A stretch of 28,041 nucleotides of DNA from a virus: positions 13,413 to 41,453 of the IMG/VR virus record IMGVR_UViG_3300005294_000847; one strand, 5' to 3'. Positions 2,139 through 21,939 of this stretch are shown one piece after another. Position numbers and translations under genes: made by a program. The notes beneath the pieces were generated by a model. It was not told the DNA's origin. It searched no databases and worked only from the letters and a program-made list of their open reading frames with translations. Numbering within the stretch: the first letter of the stretch is position 1; the number at the start of each line of letters is the position of its first letter.

Positions 2139-2392
2139 CAATCCCTCCCAGCGTCGAGTGCTCTCAAAAGTGCATGGTGCTTCCTGTTATGAAAGTGCGC
2201 GTGCCCTGTAGCCATCACTGACACAGCGCCACGCGGATCTTCCAAAACCAGCTCCGTGACCTTATAGCCCATCGCCTCACCACCAGCAGCCGCCGCAATC
2301 TTGTCGCCACGACGCTTCAAATCAGCGCGAACCTCCGGCAAATTGCGGATCTGCTCAAACACGCCCCGATTGAACTTGAGTTTGCGAGCCAT
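2138..2392 (-). CDS. HK97 gp10-like neck/minor tail protein (putative)
   Basis: Small head-tail joining protein of 84 aa, starting MARKLKFNRG. It is basic at the N-terminus and carries 'LKRRGDKIAAAAGG' followed by a His-rich tail (ATGHAHFHNRKHH). The pattern 'basic helix, Ala-rich helix, then beta segment' is what actinophage gp10-like proteins show. It is part of the connector/neck set and is coupled on both sides: its ATG overlaps the stop of the head closure gene (TGATG) and its own stop overlaps the next ATG. Function is inferred from order and size. Confidence 0.6.
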   Translation of the reverse strand: MARKLKFNRGVFEQIRNLPEVRADLKRRGDKIAAAAGGEAMGYKVTELVLEDPRGAVSVMATGHAHFHNRKHHALLRALDAGRD

Positions 2393-2727
2393 CAGCCAGT
2401 CACCCGCTTCAACTTCACCTCAGTACGGAAAACGGAAGCTGTGAAGAAATTACGCACAGGAGGCGCGTAACCCTCAACACCGAACCGCTGCCCATAAACC
2501 GTGAACTGATCAAGATGACTGATCGTCAACCCAGGAGGCAGAAACAAGACGCGCTCAACAACATCCCGCTCAGCAGACATATTGCGTGGTTCATCAGCGG
2601 CAGCCACATCTATCCCAACATCCTCAACGAGAACATCCTGATAGACCGGAACCTGCGCACCCTGCGGGTTACGCTCATTCCTAAGCCACTGGTGACGAAT
2701 CACCTGCTCACCCTGAACCTGCAACAT
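2392..2727 (-). CDS. Head closure (stopper) protein, putative
   Basis: A 111-aa protein expected to seal the connector after packaging and give the tail a docking surface. It starts MLQVQGEQV at an ATG overlapping the upstream stop (TAATG). Most of the chain is beta-rich, with 'VERVLFLPPGLTISHLDQFTVYGQRFGVEGYA' style strands as in SPP1 gp16-like stoppers: a predicted barrel in which the ligand rule 'G..Y.V.G' recurs. Called from fold pattern and synteny (adaptor, stopper, gp10, terminator). Confidence 0.6.
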   Translation of the reverse strand: MLQVQGEQVIRHQWLRNERNPQGAQVPVYQDVLVEDVGIDVAAADEPRNMSAERDVVERVLFLPPGLTISHLDQFTVYGQRFGVEGYAPPVRNFFTASVFRTEVKLKRVTG

Positions 2728-3245
2728 TACGGCCCCCAGTTCAACTTGTACGGCTCAAGCAACGCCATCTCAGTCGCAAGCAAAGGGATAGACGCAACCG
2801 AACCGCCAGCAGCCGCATAGGTTACCGACTGCGTGCCGGCTCTCTGCGAAACAACGTTCCCCGAAGGGTTCATTGCCGCACGAGAAGCAATGCCAGCAAT
2901 TAGTGCACCAAGCTCCCCAGCGTCCTCATAGCCATGCGTGAGCTCTACAGACACCGACCGATACTTCTTAGGCCAGCATCCGCCGTCCTTGCGCGACAGC
3001 AAGCCCGCCTCAGACCAATCGGCCTCAGCGGGAGAACCGTCAACGAGGACCGCAGACACCGAAACGATATGCTTCGACTTGATCTGCAAAACTTCGCCAC
3101 CATTGCCGTCAACAATCAACGTCTCAGTGTGCTCGGGGGTAACATGCCAACCGCAGTACCGGCGCACAGCACTAGTCGCCGCATCAATCCAGAACTGATC
3201 ATCAGTTGGGGCCGGCTTACTCGTCAGTATCGGAGGTAGAGACAT
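2727..3245 (-). CDS. Head-tail connector adaptor (gp6-like), putative
   Basis: Adaptor ring protein that binds below the portal (HK97 gp6/SPP1 gp15 class). 172 aa, ATG at 3245. The N-terminal part (DDQFWIDAATSAVRRYCGW) is the usual adaptor opening helix, in which a short helix and 'RYCGWH' precede a beta insert. C-terminal helices include ALIAGIASRAAMNPSG. The gene overlaps the upstream 58-aa gene by 29 nt and the downstream gene by TAATG, so translation is coupled. The family match is by pattern and position. Confidence 0.68.
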   Translation of the reverse strand: MSLPPILTSKPAPTDDQFWIDAATSAVRRYCGWHVTPEHTETLIVDGNGGEVLQIKSKHIVSVSAVLVDGSPAEADWSEAGLLSRKDGGCWPKKYRSVSVELTHGYEDAGELGALIAGIASRAAMNPSGNVVSQRAGTQSVTYAAAGGSVASIPLLATEMALLEPYKLNWGP

Positions 3246-5429: not shown

Positions 5430-6945
5430 TTTGGCACCTCCAAAATAAGCATGTTGAAAACGTGCCCAGGATTATCGAGGTCAGCATCGAGCCGGGACTT
5501 AGTATGGTCGTTCAAAAGGGTTGCGATTGATCCTGCATCAGGAACGCCGGCTACCGACAAATCAGCTTCAAGCTCACGCTTCCACCGGCCACCATCCCAA
5601 CCCTTCGCAGAAATTACCGACTGCTGACGAACTAGGCATTTACGCCATAACTCCGCAACAGCTTTCTCGGCTTCCTCCACCGTTTCCACAGCTTCGGTAG
5701 ATCCAGAGTCAGGAGTTCCAAGGTTCAGCGGAACAATCAGAGCATCCCCGCCATCAATCTTTGGGAGGTTCTGCAAGCGCCGCGCCTCATTACGAGTCAT
5801 CCAAGGTCCACCGACTGACGAAGAGATAACCGCTGCCTGCTCTTCGAACGAGCCACGCAACTTCGCCTCAACGTTGAACTCCAAGAACACGCCAGCAGGA
5901 GCCCCGACGAGTGGTAGCAAGAAAGCGTTCAACCGGGACTCGATCATTGCGATGATCGGCCCCAGCGTGTCGCCGTAAAGACCGCGCCGAAACTCGCGAA
6001 CATTCGAATAGTTCGCGTTATCCAACAAGCCGATCATCGTCGGGTTCACGTGATAAACCTGCGCAACAGTAGCCAACGAAAGCTTCGTCGAATCCGCCCA
6101 CTGCTCATCAGCAGACGAGAAGCCGATACGCTTCACATCCATGCCATCCTCAAGCAACGGCATTCCGCCAGCGCGAGAACCCCTATCGCCCGTGAAAGCT
6201 TCAAGCATTTCTGTGAATCGCTTGCGAGCCGAACCATCCCACGACGGGGCATCCTTCGGACGAGTCACAAACGAACCAATGCGACCATTCTTCTTCCACA
6301 ACTGCTTGCGGTGCACACGCGCATGATGCTGCTCTTCAAGCGTGAGACGCAGCGTCTCAACAGGCGAAGTAGAACATGTAGGATCGCCGGGGGGTCCAGC
6401 CTTCGAACTCGATCACTTCGTCAGCAGTGAAACTCAGTTTCTTCGCCATCGTTACCGGGTAACGCAACAACGAACTCATTCGAACCGTAGAACGAAGTAG
6501 CCTTCGAATGAACCCAACCAGCAGGCAGGTTATAAACCGAGAAGCCCTCCGGGCGGTTCATGTCCGGCGCACACCACAAGTAAGCTCGATCATAAAGAGC
6601 AATGTCGCCAACCAGCGCAAGAATCAAGTCGTAGCGGGTTTGTCGAGCATTCGGCTTCGAAATAATACTCGAAACACTATCCCCACGCACACGCTCATTC
6701 GAATCACCATTAGCCATAAACGTATGAAGACCAAGCTGGGCAATGTTGCGCGCAAGGAAATTAACCACAGTCCGCAAATGAGGCTGATTAGTCCACAGTT
6801 CTTCAATTGACTTATTGTCCAGAGACGACTCAGAAGACTCATTCATCGACCAATGCACCTGAGTCTGACCATCGAAACGCTCCGTAGTCATTCGCCCAGA
6901 AGATCCGCCACGAATCAGCCTGGTAAACGCATCCAATACACTCAC
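5405..6945 (-). pseudogene. Portal protein, broken by two +1 frameshifts
   Basis: HK97-family portal: the dodecameric vertex ring through which DNA enters. Reading starts at GTG 6945 (VSVLDAFTRL), five bases after the terL stop. The first frame runs to a stop at 6421 just after 'GNDGEETEF'. Dropping one T of the TTT at 6430-6432 continues as TADEVIEFEGWTP. Dropping one C of the six at 6389-6394 continues as GDPTCSTSPVETLRLTLEEQ, then HRKQLWKKNGRIG and the rest to 5405. The repaired join gives EFTADEVIEFEGWTPGDPT, a classic portal sequence, and exactly 513 codons. As written only two fragments would be made: about 175 aa and, if a start exists, about 300 aa. Either the prophage is defective or these are homopolymer sequencing errors. 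Confidence 0.88.
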
Positions 6946-17637: not shown

Positions 17638-17991
17638 TTACCTCCTTATTAGTTGCTGGATGTGCCCGGTGATGACTTGCTCTTGGTTGTCTAGGTGGTC
17701 TTCTAGGACGGCTTTGTACCCTTCGTCTTCTGGGCGGTAGTCGTCTTGGGTTTCGTCGTCCCAGAGTGACCTTGTGTGGGTTTGTGCCCGCCAGTTGATG
17801 AGTCCGAGGATGTTCATGCATGACACGTCTGATGGGCGTTGCTTGGCGAGGTTCCAAACACGGGCTTGCAGGTTGAGGAACTCGGGCTTGAAGTCGTCAT
17901 TACCGTGCTCGCGGAAGTAATCAGTGAATAGGTTTTCAATGAAAGTCACGCGGTCCTTGTAGGACAGTTCGCGACTCGTTGGCATGGTCAT
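17638..17991 (-). CDS. Hypothetical protein
   Basis: 117 aa, ATG at 17991 overlapping the upstream stop (ATGA). Acidic and helical, with YKDRVTFIENLFTDYFREHG and NLQARVWNLAKQRPSD at the front and EDEGYKAVLEDHLDNQEQV near the end. The C-terminal Cys is single, so no zinc site. Its last codons hold the ribosome site of the GIY-YIG gene. Function unknown. Confidence 0.7.
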   Translation of the reverse strand: MTMPTSRELSYKDRVTFIENLFTDYFREHGNDDFKPEFLNLQARVWNLAKQRPSDVSCMNILGLINWRAQTHTRSLWDDETQDDYRPEDEGYKAVLEDHLDNQEQVITGHIQQLIRR

Positions 17992-18647
17992 TTGAGCTCA
18001 CCTGCCAATGCGATGTAGCCGGCTACGTCCACGAGAGAGTCTTCGTGTCCGGGGGTGTTTGCTAGTCGGCTCATTTTCAACTGCACGAGCGCGTAGGCTA
18101 CGTCTTCGGCGGTGAGTGGTTCGGATAGTTTCTTGCCGAGTTGCGCGTTCCAGAGTGCTGCGATGCGTCCGAAGTTTTCTTTGGGGTGTCCGTAAGCGTC
18201 TGCCCGGTCGCCGTTGATCAGACTCTCGGCGGTGGATAGGATACGGGCACGCTCATTCTCGGCTTCCACTTCGGTGTGAACCTCAGTGTCAGGGGCAGGG
18301 GTTGGTGCGTGGCAAAGGTCGACTGGTTGATACCATCCGGAATTACCATTGCTAAAATCGACGCGGTACGGAAAGGCCTTACCTTCTATGAGGCCAATTG
18401 TTCCGATAAGTTCGCCGTGAATAATTTTTACTCGGCTGCCCAATTCAAACGGTTTATCAAATTTCATTACCACTGGTACTTCTCCTAGTCCTAGAATTTC
18501 TGAGTTTTTGAACATGCGTGCCCCGGCTTTGAATGTGAAGTCGCCTTGCCGGTTTGGGATGCCACTGTCAGTAATTTTCACGGTGATTTCCGTGCCGTCA
18601 TGGTCGTGGATGCGCACATAATCGCCGGTCTGGTATTGCTGACTCAT
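17988..18647 (-). CDS. Phage protein with C-terminal DUF6378-like domain
   Basis: 219 aa from ATG 18647, the start set by an ATGA overlap with the upstream gene. N-terminal part (1 to about 110) looks like two small barrels (GDYVRIHDHDGTEITVKI; LGSRVKIIHGELIGTIG). C-terminal part (about 135-219), with AESLINGDRADAYGHPKENF, RIAALWNAQLG, LTAEDVAYALVQLKMSRL and HEDSLVDVAGYIALAG, matches the DUF6378 family found in many phages. The family's function is not established to my knowledge; conserved His/Asp and helical shape recall MazG-like nucleotide hydrolases, but that is inference. Confidence 0.78.
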   Translation of the reverse strand: MSQQYQTGDYVRIHDHDGTEITVKITDSGIPNRQGDFTFKAGARMFKNSEILGLGEVPVVMKFDKPFELGSRVKIIHGELIGTIGLIEGKAFPYRVDFSNGNSGWYQPVDLCHAPTPAPDTEVHTEVEAENERARILSTAESLINGDRADAYGHPKENFGRIAALWNAQLGKKLSEPLTAEDVAYALVQLKMSRLANTPGHEDSLVDVAGYIALAGELK

Positions 18648-18835
18648 TTCTTTCTCGCTTTCATGACGTTGCCTACCGCTTGATTCGCGGTGTGGTCGGC
18701 GTGGGTTAGCCGTATCGGTGTTCGGATTGCGTTTAGGTGCTTCACGAGATGGCATACGCAACGCTTGTTCCGGCACATAAAGTAAGGCGCTGCACCCGCG
18801 CAACATTTGTCGCACTCCGGCTTATCGAGGGTCAC
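18644..18835 (-). CDS. Small Cys/His-rich protein
   Basis: 63 aa from GTG 18835 (GTGA overlap with the previous stop, GAGG upstream). Cys cluster CDKCCAG...FMCRNKRCVCHLVKH (about 8-32) looks like a zinc-binding treble clef. The tail is basic (MKARKK). No function recognised; part of a coupled series. Confidence 0.65.
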   Translation of the reverse strand: MTLDKPECDKCCAGAAPYFMCRNKRCVCHLVKHLNAIRTPIRLTHADHTANQAVGNVMKARKK

Positions 18836-19128
18836 TGGTTAGCCTCGGCTTTTTTGCGTGCCCGGTATGCACGGTTTTCTTCATTGACCGCATCGGCGCA
18901 TGGGTCGCAAACGGGCTCACCGTATTTCTTGTGCTGCCGATAACCAGTCATCGATCCGTGCTCACGATCAGCCACCACCGTGACTCGCCTACGCCTCGGC
19001 ACTGGAGGTTCTAGGCTGACAACCGGCTTGCCACGGTTCATCCAGTCCTTGCACACTCGGCAGTCTTCGCCGTCTGCTATGTGCTCCTTGATGCCCCTAT
19101 CGGTCGCGCAGTACATGTACCCGCTCAT
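18832..19128 (-). CDS. Cys-rich actinophage protein
   Basis: 98 aa from ATG 19128 (MSGYMYCATDRG), with AAAAGGAC upstream; the frame further upstream crosses two hairpins and is rejected. Cysteines: C7, CRVC (about 23-26) and CDPC (about 75-78). The stretch GSMTGYRQHKKYGEPVCDPC resembles the 'GYRRHKKYGEKPCEPC' motif common in actinophage and WhiB-neighbouring proteins, suggesting a zinc site and nucleic-acid contact. The first gene after a double hairpin. Confidence 0.7.
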   Translation of the reverse strand: MSGYMYCATDRGIKEHIADGEDCRVCKDWMNRGKPVVSLEPPVPRRRRVTVVADREHGSMTGYRQHKKYGEPVCDPCADAVNEENRAYRARKKAEANQ

Positions 19129-19150
19129 TTGTAAGTCCTTTTGGTTATGG

Positions 19151-19187
19151 TTTCGGGGCTGGCATCGTGTGGACGCCAGCCCCGAAA
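19151..19187 (-). promoter_or_regulatory. Strong stem-loop before gene at 18832
   Basis: Perfect 13-bp stem TTTCGGGGCTGGC/GCCAGCCCCGAAA with an 11-nt loop. It ends 8 nt before AAAAGGAC. There is no T-tract on either side. It lies just downstream of a separate terminator hairpin (19197-19224), so the two stand in tandem. Confidence 0.6.
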
Positions 19188-19196
19188 AGTGGGATG

Positions 19197-19224
19197 AAAA
19201 AAGCCAGCGCGTCATGCACTGGCT
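19197..19224 (-). terminator. Intrinsic terminator after gene at 19232
   Basis: AGCCAGTGC pairs with GCGCTGGCT (9 bp with one G-U) around a 5-nt loop, followed on the minus strand by a run of T. It starts 7 bases after the stop of the membrane protein gene. One of the best terminator candidates in the window. Confidence 0.75.
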
Positions 19225-19781: not shown

Positions 19782-20324
19782 TTAGAAGGCTGGTTTGTCG
19801 TTCGGCTCGCCCCAGCCACCTTGCGGGTTAGCGTTCGACTGCCACGGATCGTTACCCTGATTCGGCGCGTTCCAACCCTGCGACGGCTGCGGGTTCTGCT
19901 GTGGTGCGGACTGCTGTGGTGGCTGGGACTGAGTGCCACCTCCACCATTGCCACCGGAACGATTCGTGCGCGTCACCTTGGCAGAAGCGAACCGGAGAGA
20001 AGGGCCGATCTCGTCAACCTCCAACTCCATGACAGTTCGATCCTCACCCTCCTTGGTGGTGTACTTGCGCTGATGCAACCGACCCTGAGCAATAACCCGC
20101 ATCCCCTTAGTCAGCGTCTCCGCAGCGTTCTCCGAAGTTTCGCGCCACACTGAACACCGGAGAAATAGCGCTTCCCCGTCTTTCCATTCGTTGCTCTGCC
20201 GGTCAAACGTGCGCGGGGTGGAAGCGATGGTGAAGTTTGCGACCGCTGATCCGCTTGGCGTGAACCTGAGCTCTGGATCTGCCGTCAAATTCCCGATTAC
20301 CGTAATTACTGTTTCGCCTGCCAT
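19782..20324 (-). CDS. ssb: Single-stranded DNA-binding protein
   Basis: Binds and protects ssDNA during phage replication and recombination. 180 aa, ATG at 20324. The OB fold spans about 1-110 with the standard opening [25 protein letters not shown] and a later [25 protein letters not shown] Gly/Gln/Pro/Asn-rich linker (about 125-170) leads to a C-terminal tail ending NDKPAF, shorter in acidic residues than the bacterial DDxPPF tip, so host partner binding may differ. Next to the exonuclease and its partner, forming a recombination set. Confidence 0.95.
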
Positions 20325-20510
20325 TTACTTGCTTTCCTTTCGGTGGTCGCCGTATATTGCGGCGATTGAGTCACTGAGAACCTTGGCTAGGTGCGCTGAT
20401 TTCACTTCAATCTCCTCGGGCATACCGTTATTCGGGCCTCGCAACTCTGCCGTCTTCGTGTATTTCAAGCCCGGATCAAGCTCGATCTGAATGGTGATCT
20501 TGTCCGCCAT
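20325..20510 (-). CDS. Small hypothetical protein
   Basis: 61 aa, ATG at 20510 (GAAGG upstream). The chain (MADKITIQIELDPGLKYTKTAELRG) begins with beta strands and ends with a helix (VKSAHLAKVLSDSIAAIYG). It sits one base before ssb and two bases after the recombination partner gene. The fold is unknown; position suggests a role in replication or recombination. Confidence 0.7.
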   Translation of the reverse strand: MADKITIQIELDPGLKYTKTAELRGPNNGMPEEIEVKSAHLAKVLSDSIAAIYGDHRKESK

Positions 20511-20512
20511 GT

Positions 20513-21106
20513 TTATTTACCTTCTTCGTTTTCGTTTTCGCGTACTGCTGCGAGGATCTTTTGCGCGTCCTCAGCGCTGATTTTGTTCGGGTGATCCCAC
20601 TGTTGGCCGATGACCTGACCGGCAGTGGCGAGCATTGCCTGTGGGTCGCCCGTATAACCGGCCTCGGTGAGCGCGTTACTGATCGCCTGCCACTGCGCAC
20701 GCCACGGCTCAGTCACCGGCTCGGATAGCACGTCTACGTGGTGTGGGACTGTTTTCTTCTGCGAAACACGCTTAGGCACAGTGAAAGCCTTCTCAATATG
20801 CGAAAGGGCGATAATCTCCACACCACCCACAGCTTGACCCGCGTAAACAACCTCAGGATTATTGACCAGCTTCACTAGTCGACCAATCCAATCGTTAGTC
20901 TCCGTGCCCCATGCCTTAGCGATAATCCGGCGCATACCCAGCGACGGAATCCAAGGTCGACCATTCATCCCCACAAGGTCAATGATGACCGGTTTGGTGC
21001 CGTCTCCCTGGCGAACGTTTTCGATGGTGGCGACGATTGGTGCGCCACTCAAGTCCGCGGCATTCAGCCTGTCGGATTTTGCTAAGAGAGTCTTTGAAAT
21101 ATCCAT
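20513..21106 (-). CDS. Recombination-module protein of unknown family
   Basis: 197 aa from ATG 21106, which overlaps the exonuclease stop (TAATG). The N-terminal 100 residues are beta-rich (APIVATIENVRQGDGTKPVIIDLVG, RPWIPSLGMRRIIAKAWG, WIGRLVKLVNNPEVVYAGQ), consistent with an OB-like DNA-binding domain. A Pro/Val-rich linker is followed by a C-terminal helical part. It lies between a lambda-type exonuclease and SSB, exactly where a single-strand annealing protein (RecT/Beta/Erf) is normally found, yet I see no RecT, Erf or Sak signature. It could be a new annealing or accessory protein. Confidence 0.62.
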   Translation of the reverse strand: MDISKTLLAKSDRLNAADLSGAPIVATIENVRQGDGTKPVIIDLVGMNGRPWIPSLGMRRIIAKAWGTETNDWIGRLVKLVNNPEVVYAGQAVGGVEIIALSHIEKAFTVPKRVSQKKTVPHHVDVLSEPVTEPWRAQWQAISNALTEAGYTGDPQAMLATAGQVIGQQWDHPNKISAEDAQKILAAVRENENEEGK

Positions 21107-21939
21107 TAGAACGTGAACTCCGTATCTGCGTAGTGGTCGATCCATACTGTTTCGGGTGCGCCTGCGATTGAGTGCAAGTACCAGCTGATGGCGTTTCCTG
21201 CGTGTGCCTCGAAAGCGCTAACTGCTTCGAGGATCACGCGGTGCCATTCGGGATCCGGGTAGACGCGTTTCACGAACAACGGCATGCCACCGCTGTAGCT
21301 CACGTAGTCGATCCATTTGCGCCCGGTGACCAGCAACCCCATTTGTAGTTGCGCGACGTTTCCGCTCGGGATTGTTCGAGTCAAGAATTGGCGTAGCTGA
21401 GTTTTCTGGTCGCGGGATTTGATTTCAATTAGGCCGTCATCGCCAACCAGTCCGTCGGGTGAATAACCTAATTTGAATCCGTGGTCATCGTTGACGATGA
21501 AGCCGACCTCAGTAACTGGCGCATGATTGTCTGCATACACGGCTCGTGCGTAAGGTTCGTCGTCCACGCCTCGCTGCATTGCCCGGTTCATCGGCATAAA
21601 TTCCACGCGCCCGGTGATCCGCTCGGCTATGAGCGTGTTCATGAGCGTGTGTGCCATGTCGCCGTTGGACACTGTAAGGGTTTGAGTGTTCTTCGCACGA
21701 GCCAATTCGGACCGGGTTGGGTGCATCGTTTTGATGCGCTTCTGCTCCCCGGCCTTAGTCGCTTTGCCCCAGCATGGCGTATCGGCCTCGGCTTGGCACT
21801 CTGGGCACTCGTAAGCTACTGCTCCTAGCGTTTCCTTGGTGACCAGTGCGCCCACGGTAGACGCTGTAACAAGGCCGCAACGGGCTTGGAGCCACTCATC
21901 GGTGCCTTGCTCTAACTTGTCATAGATCGTTGTCGCCAC
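21106..21939 (-). CDS. YqaJ/lambda-type exonuclease with a zinc-knuckle insert
   Basis: 5'-3' dsDNA exonuclease of phage recombination. 277 aa from GTG 21939 (GAGGAGG upstream). Motifs: EQGTDEWLQARCGLVTAS (10-27), AMQRGVDDEPYARAVY (120-135), LGYSPDGLVGDDGLIEIKS (158-175) with D162, E172 and K174 as catalytic residues, and AQLQMGLLVTGRKW (196-209) with Q197. Between the first two lies an insert with CPEC (45-48), C56 and H73 (HPTR), a likely zinc-binding module seen in some actinophage proteins. Followed immediately by its partner gene and SSB. Confidence 0.9.
   Translation of the reverse strand: MATTIYDKLEQGTDEWLQARCGLVTASTVGALVTKETLGAVAYECPECQAEADTPCWGKATKAGEQKRIKTMHPTRSELARAKNTQTLTVSNGDMAHTLMNTLIAERITGRVEFMPMNRAMQRGVDDEPYARAVYADNHAPVTEVGFIVNDDHGFKLGYSPDGLVGDDGLIEIKSRDQKTQLRQFLTRTIPSGNVAQLQMGLLVTGRKWIDYVSYSGGMPLFVKRVYPDPEWHRVILEAVSAFEAHAGNAISWYLHSIAGAPETVWIDHYADTEFTF

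Follow-up and report, generated by a model that had tools for sequence, protein, structure and literature searches.

Pairs of an exonuclease and an annealing protein are drivers of phage mosaicism and form the basis of recombineering. Seven families of phage annealing protein, RecA, Gp2.5, RecT/Redβ, Erf, Rad52/22, Sak3 and Sak4, were distinguished in a 2021 survey (PMC8093625). The C-terminal domain (CTD) of Redβ is described as binding both λ exonuclease and SSB, with residue K253 required both for the contact with SSB and for in vivo recombination (PMC8303780), and efficient annealing of SSB-coated strands is reported to need both the CTD of Sak80α, a Rad52-type phage annealase, and the tail of the SSB (PMC11846896).

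The window, the whole stretch of 28,041 nucleotides analysed here, is part of a virus record of 43,274 bases and carries on its minus strand an exonuclease gene, the gene of an unrecognised 197-residue protein, a small ORF and an SSB gene. The sequence-only reading had likened this order to that of exonuclease/annealase/SSB operons, and the order itself is borne out by the list of open reading frames and the Pfam matches. The upstream partner is a YqaJ-type exonuclease (21106..21939; Pfam YqaJ, 1.3e-11; PHROG exonuclease, 5.1e-33), the stop codon of which overlaps the ATG of the 197-residue gene (20513..21106) in the motif TAATG. A 61-residue ORF that matches no family above cut-off (20325..20510) lies between this gene and the SSB (19782..20324; Pfam SSB, 2.9e-30), which ends the module and has a tail ending in EPNDKPAF. 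Our assessment leans slightly towards the 197-residue protein, a member of the family phrog_11517, being the second component of an exonuclease/annealase recombinase, a candidate annealing protein of a new type that stands in the place of RecT. Residues 39–82 of the exonuclease, inside its YqaJ span, also match a putative phage DNA-binding zinc finger (PF24623, 1.6e-7). Elsewhere in the window, the ORF at 17988–18815 contains a DUF6378 domain (1e-28) and bears the PHROG label phosphofructokinase, a doubtful name, while residues 81–123 of the 127-residue product of the ORF at 18832–19215 show a PHROG match to the C-terminal end of profiles labelled as WhiB-like regulators. Neither promoters nor terminators were in excess when scanned for.

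The 197-residue frame opens at the ATG at 21106. An alternative in-frame ATG would give 210 residues and start within the exonuclease gene; the shorter form is favoured by the family alignments. The protein is 82% identical to its homologue in Arthrobacter phage 1191A, and the two genes differ at 36, 17 and 85 first, second and third codon positions over 197 codons. This pattern, together with relatives in 186 phage records, indicates that the ORF is a genuine coding gene. The window protein carries Arg, Ile and Leu at residues 13, 53 and 56, where Gln, Lys and Lys are found in 99%, 70% and 92% of 121 aligned rows and are retained in the close relatives from 1191A and Zucker; Q13 and K56 are near-invariant positions, and their alteration is counted against the reading that we prefer. 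No Pfam family was matched above cut-off, the sole row being SHOCT below it (E = 0.094), and sequence searches found neither an NCBIfam family nor a sequence relative in the PDB. The Pfam signatures of Erf, Rad52, Sak3, Sak4 and RecA were absent at E values up to 5, PF03837 (RecT core) and PF10991 (Gp2.5) gave no row up to the same value, and the SSB signature (PF00436) was also absent in the Pfam search.

The only PHROG matched by the protein is phrog_11517 (1.6e-43), labelled "unknown function", and the profile is matched by all 121 aligned family members. Relatives are encoded in 186 of 50,697 phage records, 96 of them from Vibrio, 38 from Arthrobacter, 32 from Gordonia and 20 from elsewhere; Synechococcus and Aeromonas records also occur among the 186. 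Among the 60 of the 186 matches listed, the gene is annotated as hypothetical or conserved hypothetical, in some cases overlapping an annotated exonuclease. Contig scans contributed the best 80 of at least 581 relatives on viral contigs and the best 80 of 83 on genome contigs, giving 160 loci in which the named contigs include Actinomycetota, Enterobacterales and Alphaproteobacteria; with 11 annotated phages these make 171 loci, a few of them duplicates (Whack and SEN22 each occur twice). A Pfam scan of the 121 members returned 34 families, and among the 25 listed SHOCT was found in two members and the others in one each. As far as titles and the opening lines of abstracts show, the literature search brought up no paper describing the family, most subscription journals being outside the scope of that search. 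For phage ArV2 the genome paper assigns the exonuclease to ORF52 and SSB to ORF54, and the text available contained no mention of ORF53 or gp53 (PMC4205034). A resemblance to cyanophage S-CAM8 in BFVD was dropped, the S-CAM8 genome having no phrog_11517 match.

A same-strand exonuclease lies upstream in 168 of the 171 family loci, at 20 bp or less in 146 and at 136–1035 bp in 22; in the remaining three the gene starts 113–278 bp from the end of the record. Because the seeds of the exonuclease model were themselves neighbours of the family, this count measures linkage rather than identifying the enzymes independently; neighbours scanned singly were of the YqaJ or ExoVIII type. An annotated exonuclease is found just upstream in the 11 annotated phages, including the P22-like Lederbergvirus SEN22 of Salmonella and Brookers of Proteus, where the module is flanked by the integrase and a gene annotated as kil; MargaretKali has one small ORF between the exonuclease and the phrog_11517 gene. 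The exonuclease is also upstream in three further phages, in Acetobacter phage phiAX1 under the name integrase. This phiAX1 CDS (2310–3008), the partner usually found upstream, matches the exonuclease phrog_149 (1.6e-30). The partner exonucleases form two groups and one singleton. In the YqaJ-type group, which includes the window enzyme, all 95 rows are accompanied by a phrog_11517 protein, and in the RecE-type group of 171 rows 89 are accompanied by a phrog_11517 protein, 75 by RecT and seven by neither. The exonucleases of the window and 1191A align over just 57 residues (E = 0.002), and the tails of their partner proteins are 97.1% identical, which argues against a specific contact between tail and exonuclease.

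Starting from the exonuclease, 96 loci were collected: relatives of the RecE of Gordonia phage Wizard gave 80, and relatives of the window exonuclease gave 16. They hold a phrog_11517 protein in 16 cases, RecT in 73, neither in seven and both in none; one apparent double, L268, is due to the RecT-type tail of the phrog_11517 protein itself. The queries came from one RecT module and one phrog_11517 module and therefore set the 16 to 73 split; the informative part is the zero. The RecE-query loci are redundant. In many of the 73 RecT loci the RecT gene is upstream of the exonuclease, not downstream. Five RecT phages served as controls; phrog_11517 was absent from all five, and the exonucleases of three of them fall outside the exonuclease model.

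Other annealases were sought in 59 carrier records, a set made up of 47 of the 80 IMG/VR loci, chosen by eye for their longer contigs (28–70 kb), together with the record of the window and the 11 phages; it contains Whack and SEN22 twice, and records may be incomplete. Erf, Rad52, Sak3 and RecA were each found in 0 of 59, as was the RecT core (PF03837). This last model proved insensitive for actinophage RecT, matching four of the five RecT phages and only one of them above cut-off, and phrog_4171, which matched all five, was therefore added. It matched four of the 59 carriers, in every case on profile positions 261–390 of 392, that is, on the tail. For Sak4 (AAA_24) there were two matches, both below cut-off, and the Gp2.5 model matched none of the 59 and no control genome either. 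The AAA ATPase gene inserted between the candidate and SSB in Arthrobacter phage Zucker (5594–6805) was considered as a Sak4 and rejected, being SbcC-like (phrog_77, 1.1e-14) with its best match to phrog_1499, of unknown function. The idea that the protein occupies an annealing-protein slot, also put forward in the sequence-only reading, has thus gained ground: an exonuclease is the neighbour in nearly all loci, no locus holds RecT as well, some members share a C-terminal domain with RecT, and no testable annealase family exceeded its cut-off in the 59 carriers.

The two proteins also appear to have traded places. The RecE of Wizard is 44.6% identical to the exonuclease of L114, a phrog_11517 partner. 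When the RecE-type group was thinned at 70% identity, 49 rows remained (38 with phrog_11517, seven with RecT and four with neither), and in the resulting tree the RecE of Gudmit, which is partnered by RecT, nests within exonucleases partnered by phrog_11517, with support of 94 and 99 on the enclosing forks. The RecT label requires three changes on this tree, at least two of them forced by starred branches, in a quick search with open forks. Gudmit and OneDirection, both Gordonia phages, have DNA that is 82% identical over 2.5 kb at the structural end. They match again at 69% within a hypothetical gene adjacent to the integrase, and at 67% some 0.5–0.6 kb downstream of the module. Between the latter two flanks one phage has an exonuclease and RecT, and the other an exonuclease and a phrog_11517 protein. 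The pair Frokostdame and Birdsong was dropped, having only two short nucleotide matches.

AlphaFold2 gave a model of the whole protein, from 121 alignment rows, with a mean pLDDT of 89 and a pTM of 0.69. Residues 133–196 of this model form three helices, and the C-terminal domain (residues 133–197; 20516..20710) is predicted to be of the RecT/Redβ/Sak type by Foldseek, VIA and hhalign. The best Foldseek rows by E-value for the whole model were a Cas9 complex, exosome subunits and eIF2alpha (E about 0.02–0.05), with rows for the Redβ CTD at ranks 30, 31 and 45 (E 0.36–0.62) and probabilities of 0.95, 0.94 and 0.87, the first being 6m9k_F (E 0.36, rank 30). In VIA the top row was the Sak80α/Stl2 complex (8qe9 chain 1A, Z 5.5, 57 residues, 2.8 Å), in which the figure legend gives chain 1B as Sak80α (PMC11846896), followed by Redβ in 6m9k (Z 5.3, 61 residues, 3.2 Å) and in 8tg7 (Z 5.2, 62 residues, 3.2 Å). 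A VIA Z of about 5 is insufficient alone and may reflect a common helical bundle; the match was relied on because Foldseek gave it a high probability, each of the first three VIA rows is an annealase CTD and the comparison of sequences points the same way.

In that comparison the tail of the Mycobacteroides member L107 matched the RecT-like phrog_4171 at the C-terminal end of the profile only (7e-6), a profile matched by just six of the 121 members. With tblastn the same tail hit 44 phage records; the protein is annotated as RecT-like or ssDNA-binding in 43 of these and has no annotation in the other. RecT tails align to those of L107, L085 and L072 with identities up to 56% and E down to 2e-17. 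Window-type tails (18 rows) aligned to RecT tails in hhalign at 74%, rising to 92.5% when three intermediate tails were added, against 0.1–0.2% for reversed-profile controls. As judged from these alignments, the C-domains of some members are homologous to the tails of RecT. A search with the window tail matched only eight Arthrobacter records, all homologues, and for four further family tails tblastn matched no annealase in the phage collection. The Enterobacterales-type tail found one Proteus homologue, the sphingomonad-type tail nothing and the Rhodococcus-type tail two records of phage Whack; the Vibrio-type tail found 96 Vibrio records, 40 of them listed, of which H114 and H151 were compared and both matches lie inside the known family gene. 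At the level of sequence the RecT tail therefore holds for only part of the family. Two members have no tail, Pseudoalteromonas phage TW1 (3001–3405, 134 residues) and L153 (138 residues), and both still have the exonuclease upstream; in TW1 the reading frame goes on matching the profile for a few positions beyond the stop. The C-domain resembles the CTDs of Redβ and Sak80α in predicted fold and, strongly in only some members, the tails of RecT in sequence, and is a putative partner-binding domain of this kind. The earlier statement that no RecT, Beta, Erf, Sak or Gp2.5 signature could be seen stands for the family models, although the C-terminal third has this resemblance.

With a RecT-type tail in only part of the family and two members lacking a tail, the conserved core is the N-terminal domain (residues 1–132; 20711..21106). 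All nine invariant residues, K10, S11, D12, D18, P54, R60, W66, G94 and G95, are located here. Modelled alone from 111 rows, the 121-row alignment minus 10 left out by hand, the domain reached a pLDDT of 91.5 and a pTM of 0.85. In the AlphaFold2 model residues 24–126 run in the order strand, strand, one-residue bridge, helix, strand, strand and hairpin, which fits an OB fold. Fold matches were weak, at best E 0.086 in Foldseek and Z 4.8 in VIA, and the many rows that we take to be of OB type include those of bacterial SSBs, RPA70N, telomere-binding proteins, the OB domains of ligase and PheRS, and CsaA; ribosomal and other rows are also among them. The domain is thus predicted, weakly, to be OB-like. 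In the lists for the N-domain alone no row was recognised as Rad52 or RecT, absence from a list not amounting to exclusion.

An SSB is encoded in 22 of the 59 carrier records, and no phage SSB was detected in the other 37, a point against the reading that we prefer. In 1191A the SSB gene (27987–28289) directly follows the phrog_11517 gene and is not annotated as such, the deposited record showing instead a 52-residue CDS in another frame. An in-frame stop divides the SSB gene of Brookers (5555–6049), each part carrying an SSB annotation of its own, and in the IMG/VR record G014 there is one stop within the SSB match.

If the protein is an annealing protein, the exonuclease would generate 3′ single-stranded tails, the three-helix C-domain may contact SSB, and perhaps the exonuclease, and so bring the protein to the single-stranded tail, and the OB-like N-domain would bind this strand and promote its annealing to the complementary one. 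As the tail stays constant while the exonuclease changes, SSB would seem the more likely contact. Such a contact would also fit a recombination mediator which, like λ Orf or RecO, binds SSB through its C-domain and passes the exonuclease-made tail to host RecA, without being the main annealing protein. RecO has an OB domain and binds SSB, a combination that the predicted protein recalls. RecA was undetected in all 59 carriers, so that of the host would serve, and the fold of the Redβ CTD is described as similar to that of λ Orf, an SSB-binding mediator (PMC8303780). A mediator, however, would have no need to avoid RecT, with which the protein never occurs in the 96 exonuclease loci; the protein also holds the place of RecT between homologous flanks, and the two members without a C-domain retain their exonuclease neighbour. 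We regard this role as rather unlikely.

The close linkage to the exonuclease, with 146 of the 168 neighbours within 20 bp and a TAATG overlap in the window that makes coupled translation likely, is what might be expected of an accessory factor, the other option of the sequence-only reading: an OB-like DNA-binding subunit acting in processivity, loading or end protection with no part in annealing. That closely similar proteins are paired with barely alignable exonucleases, that exonucleases of at least two groups have a family member as partner and that some members have a RecT-type tail make such a factor distinctly improbable. A passenger gene unrelated to recombination, or a plain extra SSB, would suit the OB-like prediction and the lack of a known function, yet it would account for neither the exonuclease linkage nor the exclusion of RecT nor the C-domain, and in the window a true SSB is encoded nearby while the 197-residue protein has no SSB family match; this we consider very improbable indeed. 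An annealing protein is the most economical reading, given an OB-like core that contains all the invariant residues, the lack of any locus shared with RecT and the lack of another annealase above cut-off. We would give an even chance to the wider proposal that phrog_11517 should be added to the seven as an eighth family of annealing proteins, with a predicted OB-like core often fused to a RecT/Redβ/Sak-type tail, and that it has traded places with RecT beside the exonucleases in phages and prophages of Actinomycetota, Gammaproteobacteria and Alphaproteobacteria. If this were true, it would explain recombination in phages that have such an exonuclease and no recognised annealase, it would provide new recombineering candidates for actinobacteria, acetic-acid bacteria and vibrios, where good ones are few, and the partner-binding tail would be a module common to unrelated annealing cores.

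Compared with the described systems, the protein shares with Gp2.5/DUF2815 the setting of phage recombination and, by a weak prediction, an OB-like domain, but PF10991 is unmatched and the window has an SSB nearby, whereas gp2.5 neighbourhoods are described as without ssb (PMC8093625). With RecO and λ Orf the likeness is one of description, through the OB domain and SSB binding of the former and, in the latter, a fold similar to that of the Redβ CTD. In VIA the predicted C-domain superposes on the C-terminal helical bundle of Sak80α (Z 5.5), although the window protein has no Rad52 match and its N-domain is predicted differently. RecT/Redβ differs in its core, which is matched in the phrog_11517 protein by neither PF03837 nor, for actinophages, phrog_4171, and which in Redβ comprises 177 residues for annealing (PMC9512822), as against about 130 in the predicted OB-like N-domain; the two proteins were never found together. 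In common with RecT/Redβ, the phrog_11517 gene adjoins a phage recombination exonuclease, the tails are homologous by sequence in some members, and the predicted fold of the C-domain is like that of the Redβ CTD.
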